In this document: positions 21,015 through 32,589 of the stretch, piece after piece
Numbering within the stretch: position 1 is the stretch's first letter
Layout: every line of letters begins with the position of its first letter
IMG/VR virus record: IMGVR_UViG_3300037011_000696
Location: 1-43,899 of that record
Direction: 5' to 3' (one strand)
DNA from: a virus
Length of the DNA stretch: 43,899 bases
Notes under the pieces: generated by a model
Seen by the model: the letters and a program-made list of their open reading frames with translations, nothing else
What the model was told of the DNA's origin: nothing
Databases searched by the model: none
Program-made: the position numbers and the translations under genes

Positions 21015-22433
21015 CTATTCGGGCGGAAGTTCCTCATCTGGAGGGGCTTCCGGATCCCCTTCAGCGGGAGGCGGAGGCATGACGATCGGCGCAGGGGGGC
21101 CGCTGACAAGCTTCTCTCCGTCTTCGGGCATCGGTCGGCCATAGCGCTCATAGAAATACTTTTTGCCAAGGGGCAATCGGATCTTCGTGACCAGCACCTC
21201 GTCGATGGCCGCTTCCTTCTCGAGGTCCACCTGCTCTGCGCTCTGGAAACGCACGTCAGGGATGGGCCAGTCCCACCCGAGGTTGAAGCCGACGATTGGC
21301 GTGAGCAGGTCGCGCCTGATCGTCCGCGCGAGGTTGAGGCAGTCAGCCGCCGTCATGTCGTCTTCGCCCCGCTCGTAGACCTCTCCCAGGCTGCGCGCGC
21401 CTTTCTCGCCCGGATCTGTCGTCATGGGGTTGCCGAGCACGAGCTTGGAGATCTCCGAGTTGCAGTGCTTGATCAGCTCGGGATGGGGAAGCGCACCGGT
21501 GACACCCTTCGCCTCCACGAGCTCGATCGCGCTCTGCTCCGGCATGATGCAAGCCGCGTCGTGGCCGAGCTCCTTGACCGCCTTCCACAGCGCTGCCTTC
21601 TCGGTGTCCGATGCCCCAGGATGGTACTTCCCGACGCGCAGGGGCATCCCGTAGCGCTCGATGAACATGACCCAGTCTTTCCACGAGAAGCGCTTGAACA
21701 GGTAGAACCACGTGAGCCCGCGAAAGAGCGAGGCGCGCGCGATGGGCTGACTCCATTCCTTCTGCACGTGGGCAATCCACTGCCACTGCGCGAGAGGGAT
21801 GCCGTCGATACGGTTCTCCTCGGTGAGGATGCGGATCTCGTCCGCGTTCTGCACGCCCGCGTTGGTCCCGAGAGCGCATTGCCCCTGAGGCCAGCGCTCG
21901 ATGCTCTTGGGAAGCCAGCGCCCCGCATCGAGCTCCCAGGCGATCTGTCCCACGGCAAATGCCTTCCCGATCGCGTCTGTCAGGTCCTTGAGCGCCTCGG
22001 GCCAGTTGTCGATCCCTCCCTGTCCCCACTTCCCGTTAATGACCTCCGAGCACAGGTCAGCCGCCTGTTGCGCGCGCTTCCCATCGGCTGAGTCCTGCTC
22101 CTCGATGGCCGAGGTGATCTGCACCTCGCGTGAGAGCACAGCGCGGCGCCTCTTGCCCCAGACGCTGGCAACGTGGGCGTCCTGCTCCACCAGCTCGAAA
22201 ACCTCGTACTGGGCAGCGACATCGCCTTCGTCGGCCGACTTCATCGCGGTGGCGAGCTTCTCGGGGGTGAGTTGCCGCAAGGTGCGATCGACCGAGTAGT
22301 CATCGCGGATGCCCGAGACGAACTTCCCGAAGTCCGGCTTCGAGCTTCCAGGTTGAACCTGGGGCTCAGAGATGAAGCGCGACAGGGCGCGGATGCCCAC
22401 CTGGGCTGCTCTGGTGATGAGCGATGGTGCCAT
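21015..22433 (-). CDS. Portal protein, Mu gp29 family (DUF935)
   Basis: A 472-residue protein. The ATG at 22433 has GGAGGGG six bases upstream and overlaps the TGA of the large terminase; an ATG at 22448 is possible. Family marks are the LRQLTPEKLATAMKSADEGD segment, VWGKRRRAVLSREVQI, and WVMFIERYGMPLRVGKY, all typical of DUF935 portals. It forms the dodecameric ring for DNA entry. The C-terminal 30 residues are rich in Pro and Glu. Confidence 0.94.
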   Translation of the reverse strand: MAPSLITRAAQVGIRALSRFISEPQVQPGSSKPDFGKFVSGIRDDYSVDRTLRQLTPEKLATAMKSADEGDVAAQYEVFELVEQDAHVASVWGKRRRAVLSREVQITSAIEEQDSADGKRAQQAADLCSEVINGKWGQGGIDNWPEALKDLTDAIGKAFAVGQIAWELDAGRWLPKSIERWPQGQCALGTNAGVQNADEIRILTEENRIDGIPLAQWQWIAHVQKEWSQPIARASLFRGLTWFYLFKRFSWKDWVMFIERYGMPLRVGKYHPGASDTEKAALWKAVKELGHDAACIMPEQSAIELVEAKGVTGALPHPELIKHCNSEISKLVLGNPMTTDPGEKGARSLGEVYERGEDDMTAADCLNLARTIRRDLLTPIVGFNLGWDWPIPDVRFQSAEQVDLEKEAAIDEVLVTKIRLPLGKKYFYERYGRPMPEDGEKLVSGPPAPIVMPPPPAEGDPEAPPDEELPPE

Positions 22434-23770
22434 CAGTATCCCCTCCATGCGTCTGGCGCCTCGCCGCCAGGAAAGTGCGGGCCCTTGGGTGAGCGTGCCT
22501 CACCGCCAAGGGCAGCAAACTGGCGAGCCTGAACCGTCTGGTAGCCGAGCTCCCGGACCTGCACGAGATCGGAAGCGTGAAGCGCGAGGCCGAGAGCCCA
22601 GAACCTGTCGGCGTGTCCGTCCTTCGTCCTGGGCGCCTCGAAGCGGACGTTGCCCGCGGCCGTGTGCGTCTTGCGGACCTGGTGCAGGTCGCGTCTGATG
22701 TCCGCATCGTCCGGGATGCGCATGCGCCCGCGCTCGAACTCGTCCTTGACTCGGGTTGCGATCATGGCCGGCACCTGCCCGCTCATCATGACCGGCTCCA
22801 CGAGGCTTGACCAGCGCTCTTGTGCTTCCTCCGCCAACTGCGCGCCAATTCCGTTCGCATCGATGCACCCGCGACGAACCATGGGCATCAGTGCATCGAT
22901 GGCCTCGCGTTGCTCAGAGAACTTCGTCTGGGCGAGGGCGAGCACCGCGCGCGTCCAGTGGACGTCACCTCGCTGCTCGTTGAGCCACAGCACCGTGAGG
23001 TCTCGCTTGCGCGCCACATCGACTCCGAGCCAGAGCGGGCCGGTCGGGTGAATGCTGCTGTCGAGGGACAGGGACGCGCCCTCGTGGTAGGCCGACTCGA
23101 TGAGGCTGAAGGGCAACCACGCCTTCGCTTCGTCGAGAAACTCGCAGCAGTATTCCTGTTGCCAATCTTCCTCGGTGCCACAACCCGCGCGCAGCTCCTC
23201 GAGGGCAACGGCGAAGCCCTGCGCTACCGCCTCGTAGATGTCAGTCCGGTGGCGAGACCAGCCTTTCCCTGCATCCCAAATTTCGTAGAACTTCCCCTGG
23301 CGACCGTTCGGCGTCGAGAGAACGCGGACCTTGTAGCCACGGGTGACGCAGGGGTAGAGGGCCGTCCAGATCTTCTGCGCGTCCTGGTGGTGGGCGAACT
23401 CGTCGAGCACGATGTTGCCATGCGAGCCGCGCGCGGTGCGTGGGTTGGCGGGCAGGCCGACGATCTTTGACTTGTTGGGGTAGACGATGGACAGCTGCCG
23501 ATAGCGGGTATCCTCGAAGAACCCCTCGGTCAGCTCTGGCGCGAGACCCATCGCCTCGCTGTGAGTGCGTGCCTCCTCGATGGCCTCTTCGGCCTGCCGT
23601 TCAGTCGTCGAGAGGAAGTACCACGACACGCGGCGAGGGATGCAGTCAAGCACGATCCCCAACATGGTGGCCCACGTGTAACCGATCTGGCGGGCCTTCA
23701 ACGCGATCGAGAAGCGAGCGTCATCGTCGATCCAGCGTTGCTGGTACGGGTAGAGGTCAATCGCCGCCAT
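22433..23770 (-). CDS. Large terminase subunit, Mu gp28 type
   Basis: A 445-residue protein. The ATPase part has a modified P-loop (ALKARQIGYTWA near residue 27, with Tyr where Lys often stands), a Walker B (NIVLDEFAHH near 118) and the coupling motif LSTPNG near 150. The nuclease part begins with LGVDVARKRDLTV near residue 250, and DANGIGAQLAEEA supplies a later acidic site. It packages DNA into the head and cuts it. The ATG at 23770 overlaps the end of the small subunit gene; a TTG lies just before it. It is followed by the portal gene. Confidence 0.94.
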   Translation of the reverse strand: MAAIDLYPYQQRWIDDDARFSIALKARQIGYTWATMLGIVLDCIPRRVSWYFLSTTERQAEEAIEEARTHSEAMGLAPELTEGFFEDTRYRQLSIVYPNKSKIVGLPANPRTARGSHGNIVLDEFAHHQDAQKIWTALYPCVTRGYKVRVLSTPNGRQGKFYEIWDAGKGWSRHRTDIYEAVAQGFAVALEELRAGCGTEEDWQQEYCCEFLDEAKAWLPFSLIESAYHEGASLSLDSSIHPTGPLWLGVDVARKRDLTVLWLNEQRGDVHWTRAVLALAQTKFSEQREAIDALMPMVRRGCIDANGIGAQLAEEAQERWSSLVEPVMMSGQVPAMIATRVKDEFERGRMRIPDDADIRRDLHQVRKTHTAAGNVRFEAPRTKDGHADRFWALGLALHASDLVQVRELGYQTVQARQFAALGGEARSPKGPHFPGGEAPDAWRGY

Positions 23771-24230
23771 CAACCTTCGCCTTCGCGTGTCCGTTGCCGC
23801 CGCCCTCGGCCTTCGGGGGTAGACCGTAGACCTCGCGGATCTTGTTTACCGCCTCCTCGGGAGTGGGTTGGTCGGTCTTGTCCTTCGCCGACTCGATGGG
23901 AGCGCGGGCGACACGGCCGTATAGGTCAGGATAGCGGCGCTCGAGAAGCCAGGCCGCTGCCGTCCAGATCCCATCGAGCGCTGCCTTGCGAATGACGGCA
24001 AGGCAGGTTTCGGCCCCCTCACCCTCGGAGTCCTTTATCGCCTGTAGGAATTCCACGAATTTTGCACTTCCTGGCCCACCCTCGCGCCCCCTCGCCATCC
24101 ACACGCAAAACGTCTTCTCGCTCACACCAGCCGCCTGCGCCGCAAGCTTGTAGGTGGCCCCGAGCTTCACCGCCTGGCAGATCCGCTTCGTCACCTCGGG
24201 CGTCAGCTTGGTTGGTCTGCCAGCTGGCAT
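23757..24230 (-). CDS. Small terminase subunit
   Basis: A 157-residue protein. The N-terminal 50 residues form the usual HTH (GRPTKLTPEVTKRICQAV, AAQAAGVSEKTFCVWM) that binds the packaging start. The middle (AVIRKAALDGIWTAAAWLLE, RRYPDLYGR) matches the oligomerisation helices of small terminases. The C-terminus is polar and contains GGGNGHAKAKV. AGGTGAC precedes the ATG at 24230. It is the first gene of the leftward late operon. Confidence 0.9.
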   Translation of the reverse strand: MPAGRPTKLTPEVTKRICQAVKLGATYKLAAQAAGVSEKTFCVWMARGREGGPGSAKFVEFLQAIKDSEGEGAETCLAVIRKAALDGIWTAAAWLLERRYPDLYGRVARAPIESAKDKTDQPTPEEAVNKIREVYGLPPKAEGGGNGHAKAKVDGGD

Positions 24231-24374: not shown

Positions 24375-25439
24375 GTGTTAGTGAAAACAAGAGACCTCAA
24401 GAGCGCCCTCGGTCCCCTGGTTCAGTTGACCAAGGGGCAAAAAACGCCGACCGAGTCGGCAGTCATGCTGTCGTTTGATGGCTCGACCTTGACGTTGCGT
24501 GCCCATGTTCGAAGCGTTGAGCTTCGGTACGTGCTCAGCGGCGAAGACGAGCATCCGGCGGCGTCCATCTGTGTGAACGCCAAGAATCTCCTGAAGCAGA
24601 TCCGCGCTTGCAAGGCGAGTGTAGTGAACCTCGAGATCGCGGATGGTCTCCAACTCAAGTCTGGGGTCCTGAATTGCACCATGGCCCCTCAGTGCCCGGC
24701 GAGTATAATGCCCAGCCCGATCTGTCACTCCGGCGACGACACCGTCATTATCGACTCCACTCGTGCGACTGACATGGCGTGGGTCGTTCGAGCGATGGGT
24801 TGCGATGAGACCCGCAAGCACATCAATGCCCTGTATCTCGATGCGTCCATGGGCATGATGGTTGCGACCGATGGACACCGCCTCCATGCCGCACCCTGTG
24901 GAACGACCCGAAGCGCGCTCATCCCCGCGCTCGCTGCCTCGCTGTTTCCGAAGCTCTGCGAGCACGGGGCCGCGATGCAGATTGGACCGGACAGCGTTCA
25001 GGTGACCACCACGGACGGCACGTTGCGTTGTCGCAACCTCACAGGGTCGGGGACTGAATTCCCCCCGTGGACAACCCTTCTTTCGCCCCTCGACACGATG
25101 ACCGTCAGAATCGTGCTGAACCGAAACGCAAGCAAGGAGTGGATGACGGCACTGAAGCCCCTTGCCAACGAGGGGGCCATCTTCCGCGTCAACGGCACCG
25201 TGCAGGTCCGATGTGCCTCCGACGCCAGCGACACAATTCTTGAGCTGCCGACAACCGACAAGGTGTGGCGAGACTACGGCGAGTGCGCCACACGTGACGT
25301 GACCATCGGCTTCAACCCGCGTTACATCGCCGACGCCGTGCTTGACGCCTGCTCCGTCCATCTCCCGTCTGACCCCCTCGCTCCTTGCCGCGTCATCTCC
25401 GGTGAGCGACAGGCGCTCGTAATGCCCACGAGACTGTAG
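24375..25439 (+). CDS. dnaN: DNA polymerase III beta subunit (sliding clamp) homologue
   Basis: A 354-residue protein, near the 366 of the E. coli clamp. Family marks are NALYLDASMGMMVATDGHRL near residue 155 and the C-terminal GERQALVMPTRL, which matches the clamp ending VMPMRL. The three-domain length is complete. The GTG at 24375 has AAGGAG six bases upstream; a second GTG is at 24381. The clamp holds polymerases and repair enzymes on DNA. This is an unusual gene for a 43-kb phage that has no polymerase of its own; it could recruit the host polymerase or nuclease/ligase partners to phage DNA. It is the first gene of the rightward set and is followed after 3 bp by the ASCH gene. Confidence 0.9.
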   Translation: MLVKTRDLKSALGPLVQLTKGQKTPTESAVMLSFDGSTLTLRAHVRSVELRYVLSGEDEHPAASICVNAKNLLKQIRACKASVVNLEIADGLQLKSGVLNCTMAPQCPASIMPSPICHSGDDTVIIDSTRATDMAWVVRAMGCDETRKHINALYLDASMGMMVATDGHRLHAAPCGTTRSALIPALAASLFPKLCEHGAAMQIGPDSVQVTTTDGTLRCRNLTGSGTEFPPWTTLLSPLDTMTVRIVLNRNASKEWMTALKPLANEGAIFRVNGTVQVRCASDASDTILELPTTDKVWRDYGECATRDVTIGFNPRYIADAVLDACSVHLPSDPLAPCRVISGERQALVMPTRL

Positions 25440-25442
25440 CCC

Positions 25443-25748
25443 ATGCTCGCCCTCAGCATCCGCCAGCCCCACGCCGAGCTCATCTTGCGAGGGATCAAAC
25501 TCGTCGAATATCGCTCGAGAGCAACCACCATCACCGGCGTGAGGTTCTACGTCTACGCCTGCAAACGCCTGGACCCCTTCATGGGGCTGGACTTCACTCC
25601 CGATGATGTCGAGACAGGTGTTCTCGTCGGCACCGTCGCCATCTCTCACTGTGATGGTGGCTCGTGGCATCTTGTCAAACCGCGTCGCTTGCGGCATCTG
25701 CTGATACCGATCCGTCATCCTCAACCGGTCTGGTTTCGACCATTCTGA
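25443..25748 (+). CDS. ASCH-domain protein
   Basis: A 101-residue protein. It begins LALSIRQPHAELILRGIKLV, has VEYRSRATTITG, GVLVGTVAIS and ends with HPQPVWFRPF, the pattern of small ASCH-fold proteins (PUA-like). Known ASCH members bind RNA or act on modified nucleosides, for example YqfB, which hydrolyses N4-acetylcytidine. The catalytic residues of YqfB cannot be assigned here with certainty. It is probably cotranscribed with the clamp. Its 3' end overlaps the 3' end of the opposite-strand ABC/GNAT gene by 74 bp. Confidence 0.82.
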   Translation: MLALSIRQPHAELILRGIKLVEYRSRATTITGVRFYVYACKRLDPFMGLDFTPDDVETGVLVGTVAISHCDGGSWHLVKPRRLRHLLIPIRHPQPVWFRPF

Positions 25749-26856
25749 TTCCACCCAAAACTCGTCGCGCCTCTTCCGTGTCCCACCATGGATCGCCCAC
25801 GTATTCAAAAACCGCACACGGGCGCTGAAGATACATTCGTTCGATGCCCGTGTCACTTCGTGAACCGAAGCGGCCCGGTCTCTTGCATAGCGCCCATCTG
25901 GGTGAACGATCATGACCTCGAATGAACGCCGGATGGGCCGGGTAGTTGCGAAAGCGAAACCCGGCCGCCTTGTACAATGCACCGAGTGTTTCGTTGAGCA
26001 CGAAGGCGAGACCGATGCCCTGAAAGTCTGGCAGTGTCACCGTTCGGCTCACCACCTTCAGGTTCTTCACCTTGGGATGTGGAAAATGATTCACGCCACT
26101 GAATGTGGCAAGTCTACCATCTGCGAAGAGACCGAAGCATGCTGCGCCACGATGCAACTTAGCGGTCATATAGTGAAACGGAGCGAAGATGGACCATGTT
26201 TCGTAGGGCACTCTGCGAATCTCAACTCCGATGTCTGGTCTGCGTTGAAGAGACCTCCAAGCGAAGGTCTGCTCCGCGGGGCTCAACACCCAGTCAGGTT
26301 GAAGCCACTCGATGATGTCGAAGTGGCATGAGCAAGCGATGAGATGGCGATTGTTGCGACGTACGTACTTCTGGACGGCGTGAGAAGCGATCTTGGCCAC
26401 CTGTCTGTCCACCACTGACGTGAACTCGTCGATGACGATCGGGTCCGATCGCTCGAGGAGTGCGCGGGCGATGCTCACTCTGAACTGTTCACCGTTGGAC
26501 AGAACCCGAAACGGCCTCATCCAGGCCGGGATGGTGTTGAACCCCACCGCCTGGCAGATGTTCGCGATCTCCTCGATGGTGTGAGATGGAGCGAAATCGT
26601 CGATCACACTGGGAGCATCCCACTTGAACGATGCAGCGATCTCCTCTGGCCATTGATAGCGCGCGATGGCGGTCTTACCACTGCCCGAGGGGCCCACGAT
26701 GAGACCGATGTTCCACGGTCGCTCATCGAGTGGCATGTTCACACGCCAGTGCCTCGTTTGCTTCTCCTCAAGGGGGCAATCAAACATCGACGAAACTTGA
26801 CGCACTCGCATCGACGCGGGCGTCTGGATGCCCACTACGAGATCAACGGTTTGCAT
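25675..26856 (-). CDS. ABC-type ATPase fused to GNAT acyltransferase (COG2401-like)
   Basis: A 393-residue protein. The N-terminal half is an ABC ATPase: Walker A GPSGSGKT near residue 55, signature LSNGEQFRVSIARALLE near 118, Walker B IVIDEF near 140 and an H-loop SCHFDIIEW near 176. No membrane segments are present, so it is not a transporter. The C-terminal half is GNAT-like: WSIFAPFHYMTAKLHRGA, then RTVTLPDFQGIGLAFVL with the QGIG acyl-CoA loop, then AHPAFIRGHDRSPRW. The family is known as ABC ATPase fused to acetyltransferase; its substrate is unknown. Phage Mu Mom, a DNA-modifying protein, is also GNAT-like, so modification of nucleic acid is a reasonable guess. It overlaps the ParB gene before it by 22 bp. 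Confidence 0.85.
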   Translation of the reverse strand: MQTVDLVVGIQTPASMRVRQVSSMFDCPLEEKQTRHWRVNMPLDERPWNIGLIVGPSGSGKTAIARYQWPEEIAASFKWDAPSVIDDFAPSHTIEEIANICQAVGFNTIPAWMRPFRVLSNGEQFRVSIARALLERSDPIVIDEFTSVVDRQVAKIASHAVQKYVRRNNRHLIACSCHFDIIEWLQPDWVLSPAEQTFAWRSLQRRPDIGVEIRRVPYETWSIFAPFHYMTAKLHRGAACFGLFADGRLATFSGVNHFPHPKVKNLKVVSRTVTLPDFQGIGLAFVLNETLGALYKAAGFRFRNYPAHPAFIRGHDRSPRWALCKRPGRFGSRSDTGIERMYLQRPCAVFEYVGDPWWDTEEARRVLGGIRMVETRPVEDDGSVSADAASDAV

Positions 26857-27371
26857 TTTCGACCACCGCTCTCGAGTTGCCGGATCAACTCCGCCTGATC
26901 TTGCTCATCATCGCATTCGACGACAACACGATACTCGAGCCCGTCAAGTTGGGGCTCTGCGTCGAGGCTCGGCAAGCCATCCTTCTGTCCGGCCAGGAAC
27001 TGCACCAACTCGGCGTCCTTCGCATGAATGCTCGCGAGCAACTCGTCCAGCCTGCCCTTGTCCGCGATCGCCATGGCGCCGATGGGATCGAGGGTGGCGA
27101 GCACCGTACGCTCCTCCTCCTCGGCCAGGTCCACCACCGTCACGGGCAACGTTGCCTCGCGCGCCGCCATCGCAAGCTCGACGCGCAGATGCCCATCGAT
27201 GAGCCGCTTCGTCCGACGGTTCCAGATGACGCTCTGGACGAGGCCAACCTCGCGCAACGCCCCGGTGAGCGCCGAGGCCTGCGCCTTCGGGTGCTTCCGC
27301 CAGTTCAAGGGATGCGCCGTCAGCTCACCCACCGGCATGTCCTCGTGAGCAACGATACGGTTTTGCCACAT
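26835..27371 (-). CDS. ParB N-terminal-domain protein
   Basis: A 178-residue protein. It has the ParB/sulfiredoxin-like core: VGELTAHPLNWRKHPKAQ, LREVGLVQSVIWNRRTKRL and the DGHLRVELA motif. No HTH follows; the C-terminal third is acidic (VVVECDDEQDQAELIRQL). Such short ParB-domain proteins are common in phages, where some act as nucleases or nucleotide-dependent switches. The upstream lipoprotein ends 4 bp away and the ABC/GNAT gene starts inside its 3' end, so the three form an operon running against the early genes. Confidence 0.85.
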   Translation of the reverse strand: MWQNRIVAHEDMPVGELTAHPLNWRKHPKAQASALTGALREVGLVQSVIWNRRTKRLIDGHLRVELAMAAREATLPVTVVDLAEEEERTVLATLDPIGAMAIADKGRLDELLASIHAKDAELVQFLAGQKDGLPSLDAEPQLDGLEYRVVVECDDEQDQAELIRQLESGGRKCKPLIS

Positions 27372-27375
27372 GCTC

Positions 27376-27621
27376 TCAGGCTAGCGGGCGATCGGTGCGG
27401 GGACAAGACTTATCCACAGATGTGGGCAAAGGTGTGAACAGAACCTGGTAGCGATGCACAACCTCTGTCCCGTGCCACGCGATGCGCTTCTGCGATTGAA
27501 TCGCGCGAACCATCCAAAGCTCTTTGCCGCCGGCGAAACTCAGTAGCACCTTCGGCTCAGGCTCGACGATCGCGGACTGAGCACATCCGAACAGAAACAG
27601 CACCAACGCAAACCATCGCAT
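27376..27621 (-). CDS. Small lipoprotein
   Basis: An 81-residue protein. The N-terminus MRWFALVLFLFGCAQS is a lipoprotein signal with lipobox LFGC and the acylated Cys near residue 13. The mature part is short and polar, with KELWMVRAIQSQKRIAW and a beta-like HRYQVLFTPLP. The start is ATG 27621 with GGAGG upstream; a GTG lies 3 bp before it. It heads the leftward ParB-ABC/GNAT operon. An envelope location suggests a superinfection or host-surface role, as with other phage lipoproteins, but this is inference. Confidence 0.75.
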   Translation of the reverse strand: MRWFALVLFLFGCAQSAIVEPEPKVLLSFAGGKELWMVRAIQSQKRIAWHGTEVVHRYQVLFTPLPTSVDKSCPRTDRPLA

Positions 27622-27710
27622 CACTCACCTCCAGTAAGGTCCTCCTCGAGACACGTGGACCACCACGGCCAGTTGCGCTTCCTCATCGCTCATCCTAGCC
27701 ACCCATTGCA

Positions 27711-28028: not shown

Positions 28029-28361
28029 GTGTCGCCAAAGGGTGCGCAGGCGTTGGTCGTGATCGGGAAACTGCTGCGCGAGCGCTCCTGGGTCACCGCT
28101 GCCGAGGTGTGGAAGGCGGGTGGCGGTCGGTCCATCGCGGCAGCCGGTCGGCTGCTCTCGGACCTGATGCGTCAGGGGCTGGTCCAGCTTTGGCGACACT
28201 CGACCGGCCGAGGGGCGGCGACGCGCTATCGACTCACGATCGATGGCCACAACGTGCTCGAGCTCGAGGAGCGCAACGGAACTGCTGGAGCGGATCGGAG
28301 TGGACTGGATCGGACCGGAGCGGATGGGAAGGGAACGGCAGGATCGGAATGGACCGGATAG
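28029..28361 (+). CDS. Winged-helix protein with repeat-encoded tail
   Basis: A 110-residue protein with GTG start at 28029. Residues 5-75 form a probable winged helix (LLRERSWVTAAEVWKAGG, AGRLLSDLMRQGLVQLW, wing GRGAATRYRLT). From about residue 82 the sequence is low-complexity (Gly, Asp, Arg, Thr, Ser) because the frame enters the first GGANN array. The true function is probably transcription control early in infection. The low-complexity tail may be without function. Confidence 0.7.
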   Translation: MSPKGAQALVVIGKLLRERSWVTAAEVWKAGGGRSIAAAGRLLSDLMRQGLVQLWRHSTGRGAATRYRLTIDGHNVLELEERNGTAGADRSGLDRTGADGKGTAGSEWTG

Positions 28362-28475
28362 GGTTGGACGGGAAGGGACTGGAGCGCAGTGGAAGGGAAG
28401 GGAGCGGCTTGGAACGGAACGGCAGGAACGGAGGGGAGCGGATAGGACGGGAGCGGACTGGGCTGGGTCGGAGTG
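28278..28475 (+). repeat. GGANN pentanucleotide array 1
   Basis: About 40 consecutive units of GGA plus two variable bases, with a few frame slips. It begins in the last 28 codons of the winged-helix gene and ends about 120 bp before the ATG at 28598. No gene lies in 28362-28597 other than this array and a 16-codon frame. Confidence 0.92.
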
Positions 28476-28597
28476 AACGAATGGCAGTACTGGGTTGGCG
28501 CGAGGTGGTTAGGCAAACGGCAGGAGTGTGAGCCTCATTGCTCACGGCAACTTTCAAGCGGACAGACTTCGGTCACACGCCCGCGCGGAGAAAGAAC

Positions 28598-29437: not shown

Positions 29438-29926
29438 GTGAACTACATGACGAAGAAGGATGCATCTCTCGAGCGCCAGAAGAAAACCGAGGTGGTGGAA
29501 GGCGAGCTCGAGAAGCTCATCGTAGAGCATAAGACCATATCGGCCGAGCTAGTTGTTGGTGTCGCGTCTGACGCTGCCCACCCGCTGCACAGGTACTTCG
29601 AGTGGGATGACAGCCTGGCCGCGAGCAAGTACCGGCTCGCTCAAGCGACCTCGATGATCATGGCAACAAAGTTTGTGGTGATCCTCGCGCAGAAGGGCAA
29701 CGACCTCCCCGAGGCCAAGGGTGTCAGGCAGCAGGCCGTGGTCCGCAAACTCCTCCCGGTGGGGGACAAGCAGTTCTCCACGCGGGAGGAGGTGCTCGGG
29801 TCCGAGACCGCGCGAGCGCACATCGTGGACAAGAAACGCGGCGAGCTGCGGTCATGGTGTCGGAGCGTCGTGGACATCGACGAACTTGCACCCGAGCGCA
29901 CTGCGATAGAGACGGTCCTCGGATGA
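29438..29926 (+). CDS. Conserved phage protein with HPLHRYFEWDD motif
   Basis: A 162-residue protein, GTG start at 29438 (ATG 29447 possible); GAGGAGGA lies upstream. The AHPLHRYFEWDDSLAASKYR segment is a motif seen in many phages beside replication or recombination genes. The N-terminal 40 residues are a charged helix (LEKLIVEHKTISAELVV), and the C-terminal part (EVLGSETARAHIVDKKRGEL) is also helical. No catalytic site is visible. It probably works with the gene before it. After its stop lie 196 bp filled by GGANN array 2. Confidence 0.75.
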   Translation: MNYMTKKDASLERQKKTEVVEGELEKLIVEHKTISAELVVGVASDAAHPLHRYFEWDDSLAASKYRLAQATSMIMATKFVVILAQKGNDLPEAKGVRQQAVVRKLLPVGDKQFSTREEVLGSETARAHIVDKKRGELRSWCRSVVDIDELAPERTAIETVLG

Positions 29927-29941
29927 TCCGCACAACCGAAT

Positions 29942-30113
29942 GGAACGGAATGGTGCGGGTTGGCAGCAAGGGACAGGTGAGGACCGGAACGGAGGGGACG
30001 GGAAGGGAATGGCAGGACCGGGCAGGACCGGACAGGATTGGACTGGAACGAATCGGACGGGATCGGAAGGGACGGAACGGTCAGGAAAAAACTGGAAGGG
30101 CTGAATCGGAAAG
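29942..30113 (+). repeat. GGANN pentanucleotide array 2
   Basis: About 34 units (for example ggacc ggaac ggagg ggacg ggaag) with a few slips. It fills the space between the stop at 29926 and the ATG at 30123, ending 9 bp before that start. There is no separate Shine-Dalgarno sequence other than the GGA units. Confidence 0.92.
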
Positions 30114-30122
30114 ACGCGACGC

Positions 30123-30992
30123 ATGAGCGGCTACGCCAAACTTTTTTCGAGCATCATCACCAGCACCATCTGGGAAACGGACTCGGACACGACAAAGGTG
30201 TTCTGCACCATGCTGGCGATGGCCGACGCCAACGGCATCGTTGAGGGCTCTATCCCGGGACTGGCAACCATGGCACGGGTGCCCCTCGAGAAGGCCGAGG
30301 CTGCACTGCGCCTGCTCATGTCACCAGACCCGTACTCACGTAGCAAGGAGTGTGAGGGGCGCCGCATCGATGAGATCGATGGTGGGTGGCGGTTCATCAA
30401 CTACGAAAAATACCGCAACAAGCGCGATTCGGAAGAGAAGCGCGCCCAAGATCGCGACCGTCAGAAGCGTCACAGGATGTCACGCGTGACAAGCGTGACA
30501 GAGCGTGACGAACGTGACAGTCACGCAAAGTCACAAAAAGTCGCCCAGGCAGAGGCAGAGGCAGAGGCAATAAGAAGGGAGGAGGACGCGCGTGATCCTA
30601 GTGCTACGTACCAGGACGAGGTGCGGCAGTTAGAGCGCAACAGAGAACACCACCACCCACCACCACAACGGCATGATGACGGACACGAAAACGTAGTCCC
30701 GTGTCCGGAGTGCGGACACCCCATGCGTCTCATCCGTGGCAAGCTCGGTCCGTTCTACTGCCATCCTCGCGGTGTCGGTATGGGGTGCGAGGCCAAGTTC
30801 AACGCCGAAGACCATCGCCTTGCGGCAGACGCCGCGGCAGAGCGTAAGCGTGCGGCAGACGCCAGCGCCCCCACGCCCGATCGCCCCTGGCGCGCCATTC
30901 GACCGTCACCCCCTGAGTGCCCCAAGTGTGGCGGGCCTATCGTTGACGGCCGCTGTTACGGCCCATGCGGCGAAGCGCGGGGGAAAGCATGA
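30123..30992 (+). CDS. Replication-type HTH protein with two zinc motifs
   Basis: A 289-residue protein. Residues 1-110 resemble the N-terminal winged helix of phage replication organisers (YAKLFSSIITSTIWETDSDT, VEGSIPGLATMARVPLEKAE, GWRFINYEKYR). Residues 110-180 are charged and helical with DEKR repeats. Near residues 196-225 there is a zinc motif (CPECGHPMRLIRGKLGPFYC), and the last 25 residues hold a second (CPKCGGPIVDGRCYGPCGE). It probably binds the phage origin or primes host replisome loading; no helicase loader domain is seen. The start lies just behind GGANN array 2. Its TGA overlaps the next ATG. Confidence 0.8.
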   Translation: MSGYAKLFSSIITSTIWETDSDTTKVFCTMLAMADANGIVEGSIPGLATMARVPLEKAEAALRLLMSPDPYSRSKECEGRRIDEIDGGWRFINYEKYRNKRDSEEKRAQDRDRQKRHRMSRVTSVTERDERDSHAKSQKVAQAEAEAEAIRREEDARDPSATYQDEVRQLERNREHHHPPPQRHDDGHENVVPCPECGHPMRLIRGKLGPFYCHPRGVGMGCEAKFNAEDHRLAADAAAERKRAADASAPTPDRPWRAIRPSPPECPKCGGPIVDGRCYGPCGEARGKA

Positions 30993-31868: not shown

Positions 31869-32011
31869 CGCGCGTCTACGAGATCATCCGCGCCATCTTC
31901 GTGGCCTTCGTGTGCTGCATCTTTCACCGACGGCACTGGGGCGAGGTGCGCGCGAACTTCAACGGCCGGACATTCCGCTGCCGAAGGTGCGGGGAGTGGC
32001 ATTTCCGATGA
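31865..32011 (+). CDS. Very small protein with hydrophobic start and zinc pair
   Basis: A 48-residue protein (GTG 31865 to TGA 32009-32011). Residues 5-19 are hydrophobic (YEIIRAIFVAFVCCIFH). The C-terminal 12 residues hold CRRCGEWH. Both ends overlap neighbouring genes (GTGA, ATGA), which argues that it is translated. It may be a small membrane-associated peptide or a zinc knuckle; no family recognised. Confidence 0.5.
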   Translation: MTRVYEIIRAIFVAFVCCIFHRRHWGEVRANFNGRTFRCRRCGEWHFR

Positions 32012-32589
32012 GATGGATCTCACAGCTCAGCAGCAAGGCGGGCAGACGCGAGGCCGACTTTTACGCAACGCCCCCCTCTGCGCTGGCCCCGCTTCTCGAC
32101 GAATGCCCGCCCCCGATGGGGCTCGTGATCGAGCCTGCCGCTGGTGATGGCGCCATCGTGAAGGTGCTACTCGAGCGCGGGTATCGCGTCGGCGCATTCG
32201 AGTTACGCGAGCAGTGCATGCTGGACCTGGCGCCACTATGCCCGACGGCAATAGGCGACTGGCTACTGATGTCACGCGATCCTGAGTTGCTTCCGGTGGT
32301 GCCTTGGAGCATCGCCACCAACCCACCGTTTTCGATAGCGCGAGAATTCGCCGAAGCCTGCCTCGCCACGCAAGCGCAATACGTGGCGCTGCTACTGCGG
32401 ATCAACGTCGAGGCGAGCAACCCCTGGCGCAAGTTCTGGGAAGCACACCCGTGGACCAACCGAGTCGTGCTCTGGAAGAGACCCAGCTTCACGGGGCACG
32501 GCACTGACGCCTGCAACTATTTCTGGGCGATCTGGCAAAGCCGCACAAAACGGAACGGAGCGGCGGGACCGGACTGGAACGGACGGTAG
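32008..32589 (+). CDS. DNA N6-adenine methyltransferase
   Basis: A 193-residue protein. The AdoMet-binding motif I is VIEPAAGDGAIVKVLLERG near residue 39, and the catalytic motif IV is ATNPPF near residue 108, which marks an N6-adenine enzyme. Later WRKFWEAHPWTNRVVLWKR fits the target-binding side. No restriction enzyme is adjacent, so self-protection or regulation is the likely role. The start overlaps the stop of the small gene before it. The last 10 codons lie inside GGANN array 3, so the C-terminal NGAAGPDWNGR is repeat-derived. Confidence 0.88.
   Translation: MRWISQLSSKAGRREADFYATPPSALAPLLDECPPPMGLVIEPAAGDGAIVKVLLERGYRVGAFELREQCMLDLAPLCPTAIGDWLLMSRDPELLPVVPWSIATNPPFSIAREFAEACLATQAQYVALLLRINVEASNPWRKFWEAHPWTNRVVLWKRPSFTGHGTDACNYFWAIWQSRTKRNGAAGPDWNGR

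Follow-up and report, generated by a model that had tools for sequence, protein, structure and literature searches.

A gene cassette in the 43.9-kb virus contig IMGVR_UViG_3300037011_000696, the whole of which is called the window here, is reasonably likely to be a phage DNA-base acylation system, in which an ABC-ATPase fused to a GNAT acyltransferase (ABC-GNAT) would act as the writer, a ParB-like protein as its partner and an ASCH-domain protein as the likely reader. The protein families, folds, catalytic motifs and gene order, together with the statistical association of ABC-GNAT with ParB, ASCH, PanD/CoA-transferase and formyltransferase genes, were observed directly. All four open reading frames of the cassette are present at their noted sites, which confirms the layout described in the initial annotation, namely a leftward group of short ORF, ParB-like and ABC-GNAT genes on the minus strand that meets an ASCH gene on the plus strand tail to tail. 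The features of the locus are as follows:

27376-27624 (ATG at 27621), minus strand: short ORF, possible lipoprotein, from a hydrophobic start and an LFGC box seen by eye
26835-27371, minus strand: ParB-like protein (PHROG 620, E 9e-18)
25675-26856, minus strand: ABC-GNAT, with matches to ABC_tran and PHROG 11143 and a GNAT fold model
25443-25748, plus strand: ASCH-domain protein (PF04266 at 20.8 bits; PHROG 3193)
24375-25439, plus strand: DnaN-like sliding clamp (PHROG 947, E 7e-25)
23757-24230, minus strand: TerS, terminase small subunit (PHROG 4102, E 3e-28)
22433-23773, minus strand: TerL, terminase large subunit (PF03237, 5e-19; PF17289, 7e-16)

In the order of minus-strand transcription, the short ORF is followed by the ParB-like gene, ABC-GNAT, a plus-strand insert, TerS and finally TerL. 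A gap of 4 nt separates the short ORF from the ParB-like gene, the ParB-like and ABC-GNAT ORFs overlap by 22 nt, and the 3' ends of ABC-GNAT and ASCH overlap tail to tail by 74 nt. The insert between ABC-GNAT and TerS consists of the DnaN-like clamp gene and ASCH, with the clamp gene directly upstream of ASCH on the same strand. Neither this clamp gene nor the shared direction of the leftward operon and TerS/TerL was part of the initial annotation, which had proposed expression in the prophage state. Since the operon is co-directional with the terminase genes, it fits late expression instead. In relatives, ABC-GNAT commonly continues straight into the terminase genes. The short ORF, previously put forward as a lipoprotein partner, has no homologue among the loci searched and was therefore discarded as a conserved member of the cassette. 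Elsewhere in the window, positions 31912-32586 (plus strand) match a DNA methyltransferase family (PHROG 799, E 2.5e-35), so that a further DNA modification of the ordinary type may be encoded by the phage. Simple repetitive DNA, with Arg/Gly-rich and Pro/Ser-rich ORFs on opposite strands, occupies about 28230-28520 and 29850-30126.

The ABC half of ABC-GNAT matches ABC_tran (PF00005) with an E of 3e-7 and 31.5 bits against a cut-off of 25, while PHROG 11143, a family of unknown function, spans nearly the whole protein (E 2e-92). All 46 ABC-GNAT sequences compared share Walker A, the signature, Walker B and the switch His without variation, and the Walker and signature motifs are intact in the window. 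In the GNAT half, H228, Y229, R271, P276, G280 and G282 are invariant among 46 relatives and V273 is nearly so, and the acyl-CoA motif (R271, P276, G280, G282) is intact in the window. When the whole ABC-GNAT model was searched with Foldseek, the matches listed were all ABC ATPases; therefore, the GNAT half was modelled alone with AlphaFold2 (pLDDT 92). This model superposed on 1y9k with a Z of 14.2 and an rmsd of 3.4 for 138 residues (VIA-align), and on RimI with a Z of 13.6 and an rmsd of 3.2 for 136 residues. The closest GNAT folds are protein N-acetyltransferases, RimI and Naa50 among them, and small-molecule acetyltransferases, so a protein target is conceivable. The Mom family was not among the Pfam and PHROG matches of the window, in libraries that may not hold a Mom profile. 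Phage records matching the ABC-GNAT protein number 58, two of which are pT24, and tblastn aligned residues 48-318 of the protein with records named pT24 at an E of 2e-52. The locus set collected for comparison comprises 217 ABC-GNAT loci, which form 179 clusters at 90% identity. Within it, ABC and GNAT are mostly separate genes in L035-L057, often 1-2 kb apart, and L157-L217 place ABC-GNAT on many planctomycete genome contigs.

Of the 167 clusters with room (90% identity), 138 have a ParB profile match as the co-directional neighbour immediately upstream of ABC-GNAT, compared with a match anywhere in 1/80 control terminase loci. The ParB-like protein of the window is matched by PHROG 620 and not by Pfam ParB_N (PF02195), even at E<=1. 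It shares 30% identity over 116 aa with the N-terminus of a phage ParB_N-N6_N4_Mtase fusion (pairwise E 1e-12), and two other phages encode homologues of it that are joined to N6_N4 DNA methyltransferases. Its closest relatives, at 48% identity, are annotated as DNA methylase and contain no methyltransferase domain; they were rejected as ParB-methyltransferase fusions, while the two weaker matches are true fusions. These fusions, combined with the upstream position of ParB, were counted in favour of DNA-base acylation. The available text of a 2025 survey of the ParB fold (PMC12704722) likewise describes phage ParB-N6N4-methyltransferase fusions, as well as a GTP-binding bacterial fusion of ParB with an acetyltransferase. 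Across many of the loci with a formyltransferase (L355-L394 and similar), the upstream ParB match is a mere ORF of 50-60 aa, as if ParB were reduced.

The ASCH protein of the window scores just below the PF04266 cut-off of 21.2 bits and matches PHROG 3193 with an E of 1e-13. The ASCH octapeptide GxKxx[ETS]xR is present as GIKLVEYR, in which the Lys and Arg of YqfB are kept and its Thr nucleophile is replaced by Glu22. The catalytic set of the YqfB amidohydrolase is Lys21, Thr24, Arg26 and Glu74, with Thr24 as the nucleophile, according to the accessible part of PMC6972931. The proposal of a writer plus a hydrolase in the initial annotation is thereby divided: the acyl-transfer writer with an ATPase and ParB stands, as does a real link to ASCH, whereas a YqfB-type hydrolase is weakened by the Glu in place of Thr24. 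Because YqfB's catalytic threonine is missing, the role of a reader suits the protein better than that of a hydrolase; judged from its sequence, the ASCH protein of the window most likely reads the acylated base, with removal of the group as the second choice.

With the unseeded Pfam model, 21 of the 50 ABC-GNAT records gave an ASCH match, as did 3 of the 50 terminase controls (nominal Fisher p 3.6e-5). The ABC-GNAT records were taken by hand in roughly id order, which biases them towards the window's clade, and some of them were loci with ASCH seen beforehand; the controls were hand-picked from the best 80 of at least 525. Among the 21 ABC-GNAT records with a match, ASCH lies no more than 0.6 kb from the 3' end of ABC-GNAT in 18, and is convergent in 16 of these. 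Our own ASCH profile, first seeded from genes adjoining ABC-GNAT, detected the domain in 65 of 217 ABC-GNAT loci (54 adjacent, 48 of these convergent) and in 1/80 control loci. Four of the scans kept the best 80 relatives, out of at least 596, 417, 525 (terminase controls) and 97 (formyltransferase). When the 173 clusters with room were compared, leaving out the window's own, ASCH was convergent in 39, on the same strand in 6, near in 4 and absent from beside ABC-GNAT in 124, and is therefore optional. Taken with the ParB frequency and the donor genes described below, these counts reveal a recurring phage neighbourhood, whose absence the initial annotation had named as a refutation. In phage Jace, gp89 (L003 6208-6663), annotated as helix-turn-helix, is ASCH-like when read as a longer ORF. 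In L082 (6303-7812), ABC-GNAT is followed on the same strand by uracil-DNA glycosylase-like (by eye) and ASCH-like (PF04266, E 0.088) sequences.

ASCH could instead be an eraser, i.e., an early hydrolase that deacylates phage DNA as it enters the cell, or salvaged nucleotides. YqfB sets a precedent on N4-acylcytidine (PMC6972931, available text), the opposite strand fits opposite timing, and a true Thr is kept at the nucleophile position in the ASCH proteins of L025, L033 and L090. However, this position is occupied by Glu in the window and in 45 of 56 ASCH representatives, and a profile built from 40 ABC-GNAT-associated ASCH sequences is nearest to human ASC-1 (E 6e-21) and far weaker to YqfB (E 8e-4), which makes an eraser unlikely. 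It is also conceivable, but improbable in our opinion, that ASCH and ABC-GNAT are mere neighbours, either through a slot for the insertion of any moron gene between ABC-GNAT and the terminase genes or through synteny by descent. Indeed, ASCH is concentrated in the clade near the window: it occurs in 26 of the 41 clusters at >=50% identity, counting the window, and in 9 of the 75 at 40-45%. Nevertheless, its sequences fall into two groups (34 and 22 sequences) that occur at one convergent place, and on a FastTree of 151 ABC-GNAT proteins, which has many weak forks, the presence of ASCH changes at least 25 times and its group switches at least 10 times, arguing for repeated recruitment to that place. 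Furthermore, the single control terminase locus with ASCH speaks against mere neighbourhood, as does the arrangement after insertion of a CoA-transferase: in 11 of 27 CoA-transferase clusters, ASCH remains tail to tail with this new last gene of the operon.

In relatives, further partner genes occur downstream of ABC-GNAT. In L094 and in phage Jace, the genes immediately behind it encode a PanD-type aspartate decarboxylase and a class III CoA-transferase of half length, with Pfam E-values of about 1e-30 for PanD (L094, L103, L148, L181) and of 3e-9 to 8e-8 for the CoA-transferase (L094, L148, L181). The PanD partners keep a Gly-Ser pair, a Lys and a Tyr, which we take to be the residues expected for a pyruvoyl enzyme, and Asp135 in the GDTxxG motif is invariant in the CoA-transferase partners. 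In Gordonia and Pseudomonas phages, ABC-GNAT is followed by a formyltransferase (PF00551), as it is by annotation in a Porphyromonas phage; in L412, the two are fused into one ORF of 543 aa. Since each partner-gene profile finds its own subfamily, the reverse scans speak for those subfamilies only: ABC-GNAT was present in 36/39 CoA-transferase loci (24/27 clusters at 90% identity), 22/23 PanD loci (13/14 clusters at 90% identity) and 79/80 formyltransferase loci (best 80 of 97 relatives; 62/63 clusters at 90%). The three CoA-transferase misses and the formyltransferase miss are contigs that end on that side, while the contig of the PanD miss (L353) does not. Neither PF00551 nor PF02515 was detected in the hand-picked terminase control records (0/50 each). 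The best 80 of 97 formyltransferase loci contained no PanD or CoA-transferase, and none of their clusters a convergent ASCH. Two copies of ABC-GNAT flank PanD and CoA-transferase in L321, L322, L324-L326 and L332. In phage AnClar, gp3 (L012 2312-2959), annotated as a tRNA-methyltransferase, matches Formyl_trans_N with an E of 5e-10.

The decarboxylase together with the CoA-transferase suggests beta-alanyl-CoA as the donor, and the formyltransferase an aminoacyl group capped with formyl. The acyl group of these relatives is thus probably aminoacyl, being beta-alanyl with PanD and CoA-transferase, and formyl-capped with the formyltransferase. The window holds no PanD, CoA-transferase or formyltransferase gene, ASCH being its only accessory partner, and the donor of its branch is presumably a host acyl-CoA.

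PanD usually serves pantothenate and CoA synthesis, and in line with this role, PanD and CoA-transferase might raise the CoA supply during infection rather than feed a modification. This seems very doubtful, given the strict partnership of both subfamilies with ABC-GNAT (36/39 and 22/23 loci) and the six loci in which CoA-transferase stands beside ABC-GNAT without PanD. A further alternative, which we consider quite unlikely, is that ABC-GNAT acylates RNA or protein, the target being, for example, aminoacyl-tRNA, as for GNAT toxins, or a host protein. Protein acetyltransferases are among the nearest GNAT structures, and the partner formyltransferase would resemble Met-tRNA formyltransferase, Fmt also being covered by the Formyl_trans_N family. 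In addition, ASCH is often an RNA-linked domain in the portions of the literature available, and Bell et al. 2020 (PMC7641849) suggest, in the accessible text, aminoacyl-tRNA for GNAT-EVE proteins. In contrast, the ParB family is common to DNA methyltransferases and ABC-GNAT heads the run of terminase genes, both of which favour DNA over RNA or protein, and a tRNA target would leave PanD and CoA-transferase with no evident use.

For the preferred reading, DNA-base acylation, the substrate, the timing and the roles of ABC, ParB and ASCH are deduced from context. The GNAT half would take an acyl group from acyl-CoA and move it to a DNA base, whereby the ABC half would use ATP to engage or remodel the DNA and ParB would serve as a DNA- or nucleotide-binding partner. 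Transcribed with the packaging genes, ABC-GNAT would mark virion DNA late, before packaging, and a mark set at this point would shield the virion DNA against restriction when the next host is infected. ASCH, encoded on the opposite strand and expressed, in the window, together with the replication clamp, would recognise the acylated base. In the PanD branch, aspartate would be converted into beta-alanine, the CoA-transferase would yield beta-alanyl-CoA, and GNAT would place the beta-alanyl group on an exocyclic amine of the base. For the formyl branch, the proposed step is a capping of the aminoacyl group at its amine by the formyltransferase; Fmt and PurN formylate the amine of their aminoacyl substrates. 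More tentatively, and as something possible rather than probable, ABC-GNAT cassettes may together form one family of systems by which phages aminoacylate DNA, with a beta-alanyl branch and a formyl-capped branch, in which ASCH reads or removes the mark, probably at cytosine N4.

As the donor genes of related phages suggest the attached group, the chemistry can now be tested: they name candidate acyl groups with exact masses, whereas the available text of PMC7824862 names none. The isolated phage Jace has ParB, ABC-GNAT, PanD, CoA-transferase and ASCH together, so a direct test is possible. If the proposal is true, a class of restriction-evading bases would be added, possibly with a dedicated reader or eraser, and bases that carry beta-alanyl or formyl-aminoacyl groups would be a novelty in the chemistry of DNA.

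Among known enzymes, the tRNA cytidine acetyltransferase TmcA resembles ABC-GNAT in being a P-loop ATPase fused to a GNAT domain that acylates a nucleobase; it differs by a helicase-type ATPase and an RNA target. Mu Mom is not known to use an ABC ATPase. ASCH and EVE domains were reportedly predicted as readers of modified DNA bases in the abstract of Iyer 2013. In the literature searched, no paper was found on COG2401, on N4-acetyl phage DNA, joining ParB, ABC ATPase and Mom, or linking aspartate decarboxylase, CoA-transferase and phage, and beta-alanyl-CoA appeared in none of the phage-acyltransferase matches listed. Mom shares the GNAT superfamily with ABC-GNAT and is described as acting on a DNA base from acyl-CoA (Iyer et al. 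2021, PMC7824862, available text). Compared with YqfB (PMC6972931, accessible part), the ASCH fold and the Lys and Arg of the octapeptide are common, and the window has Glu for the Thr nucleophile. In PIN-GNAT-EVE (Bell et al. 2020, PMC7641849), a GNAT is likewise proposed to acetylate a DNA base and ASCH occurs in the operon; the differences are the fusion to EVE and PIN and the type I restriction and toxin-antitoxin contexts, and neither ABC ATPase nor ParB occurs in the available text of that paper.

The closest precedent is the GNAT coupled with an ABC ATPase in Iyer et al. 2021 (PMC7824862), whose accessible text predicts a "yet uncharacterized" acyl modification of a DNA base, places the system in Tenacibaculum phage pT24 and credits it to the authors' earlier work (Iyer 2013). 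GNAT and ABC ATPase are common to both, and pT24 matches the window protein. As a predicted DNA acylation enzyme, the ABC-GNAT fusion is therefore already known from the available text of PMC7824862, and the module is not of a new kind, as the initial annotation had supposed. In that text, ParB, ASCH, PanD, CoA-transferase and formyltransferase are not mentioned for the system, although Iyer 2013 may have some of them. Likewise, no prior description of the pairing with ASCH or of the donor-gene partners was found in the literature searched, part of which Iyer 2013 may hold. What appears to be new here is the context of ABC-GNAT, namely its ParB, ASCH and donor-gene partners.
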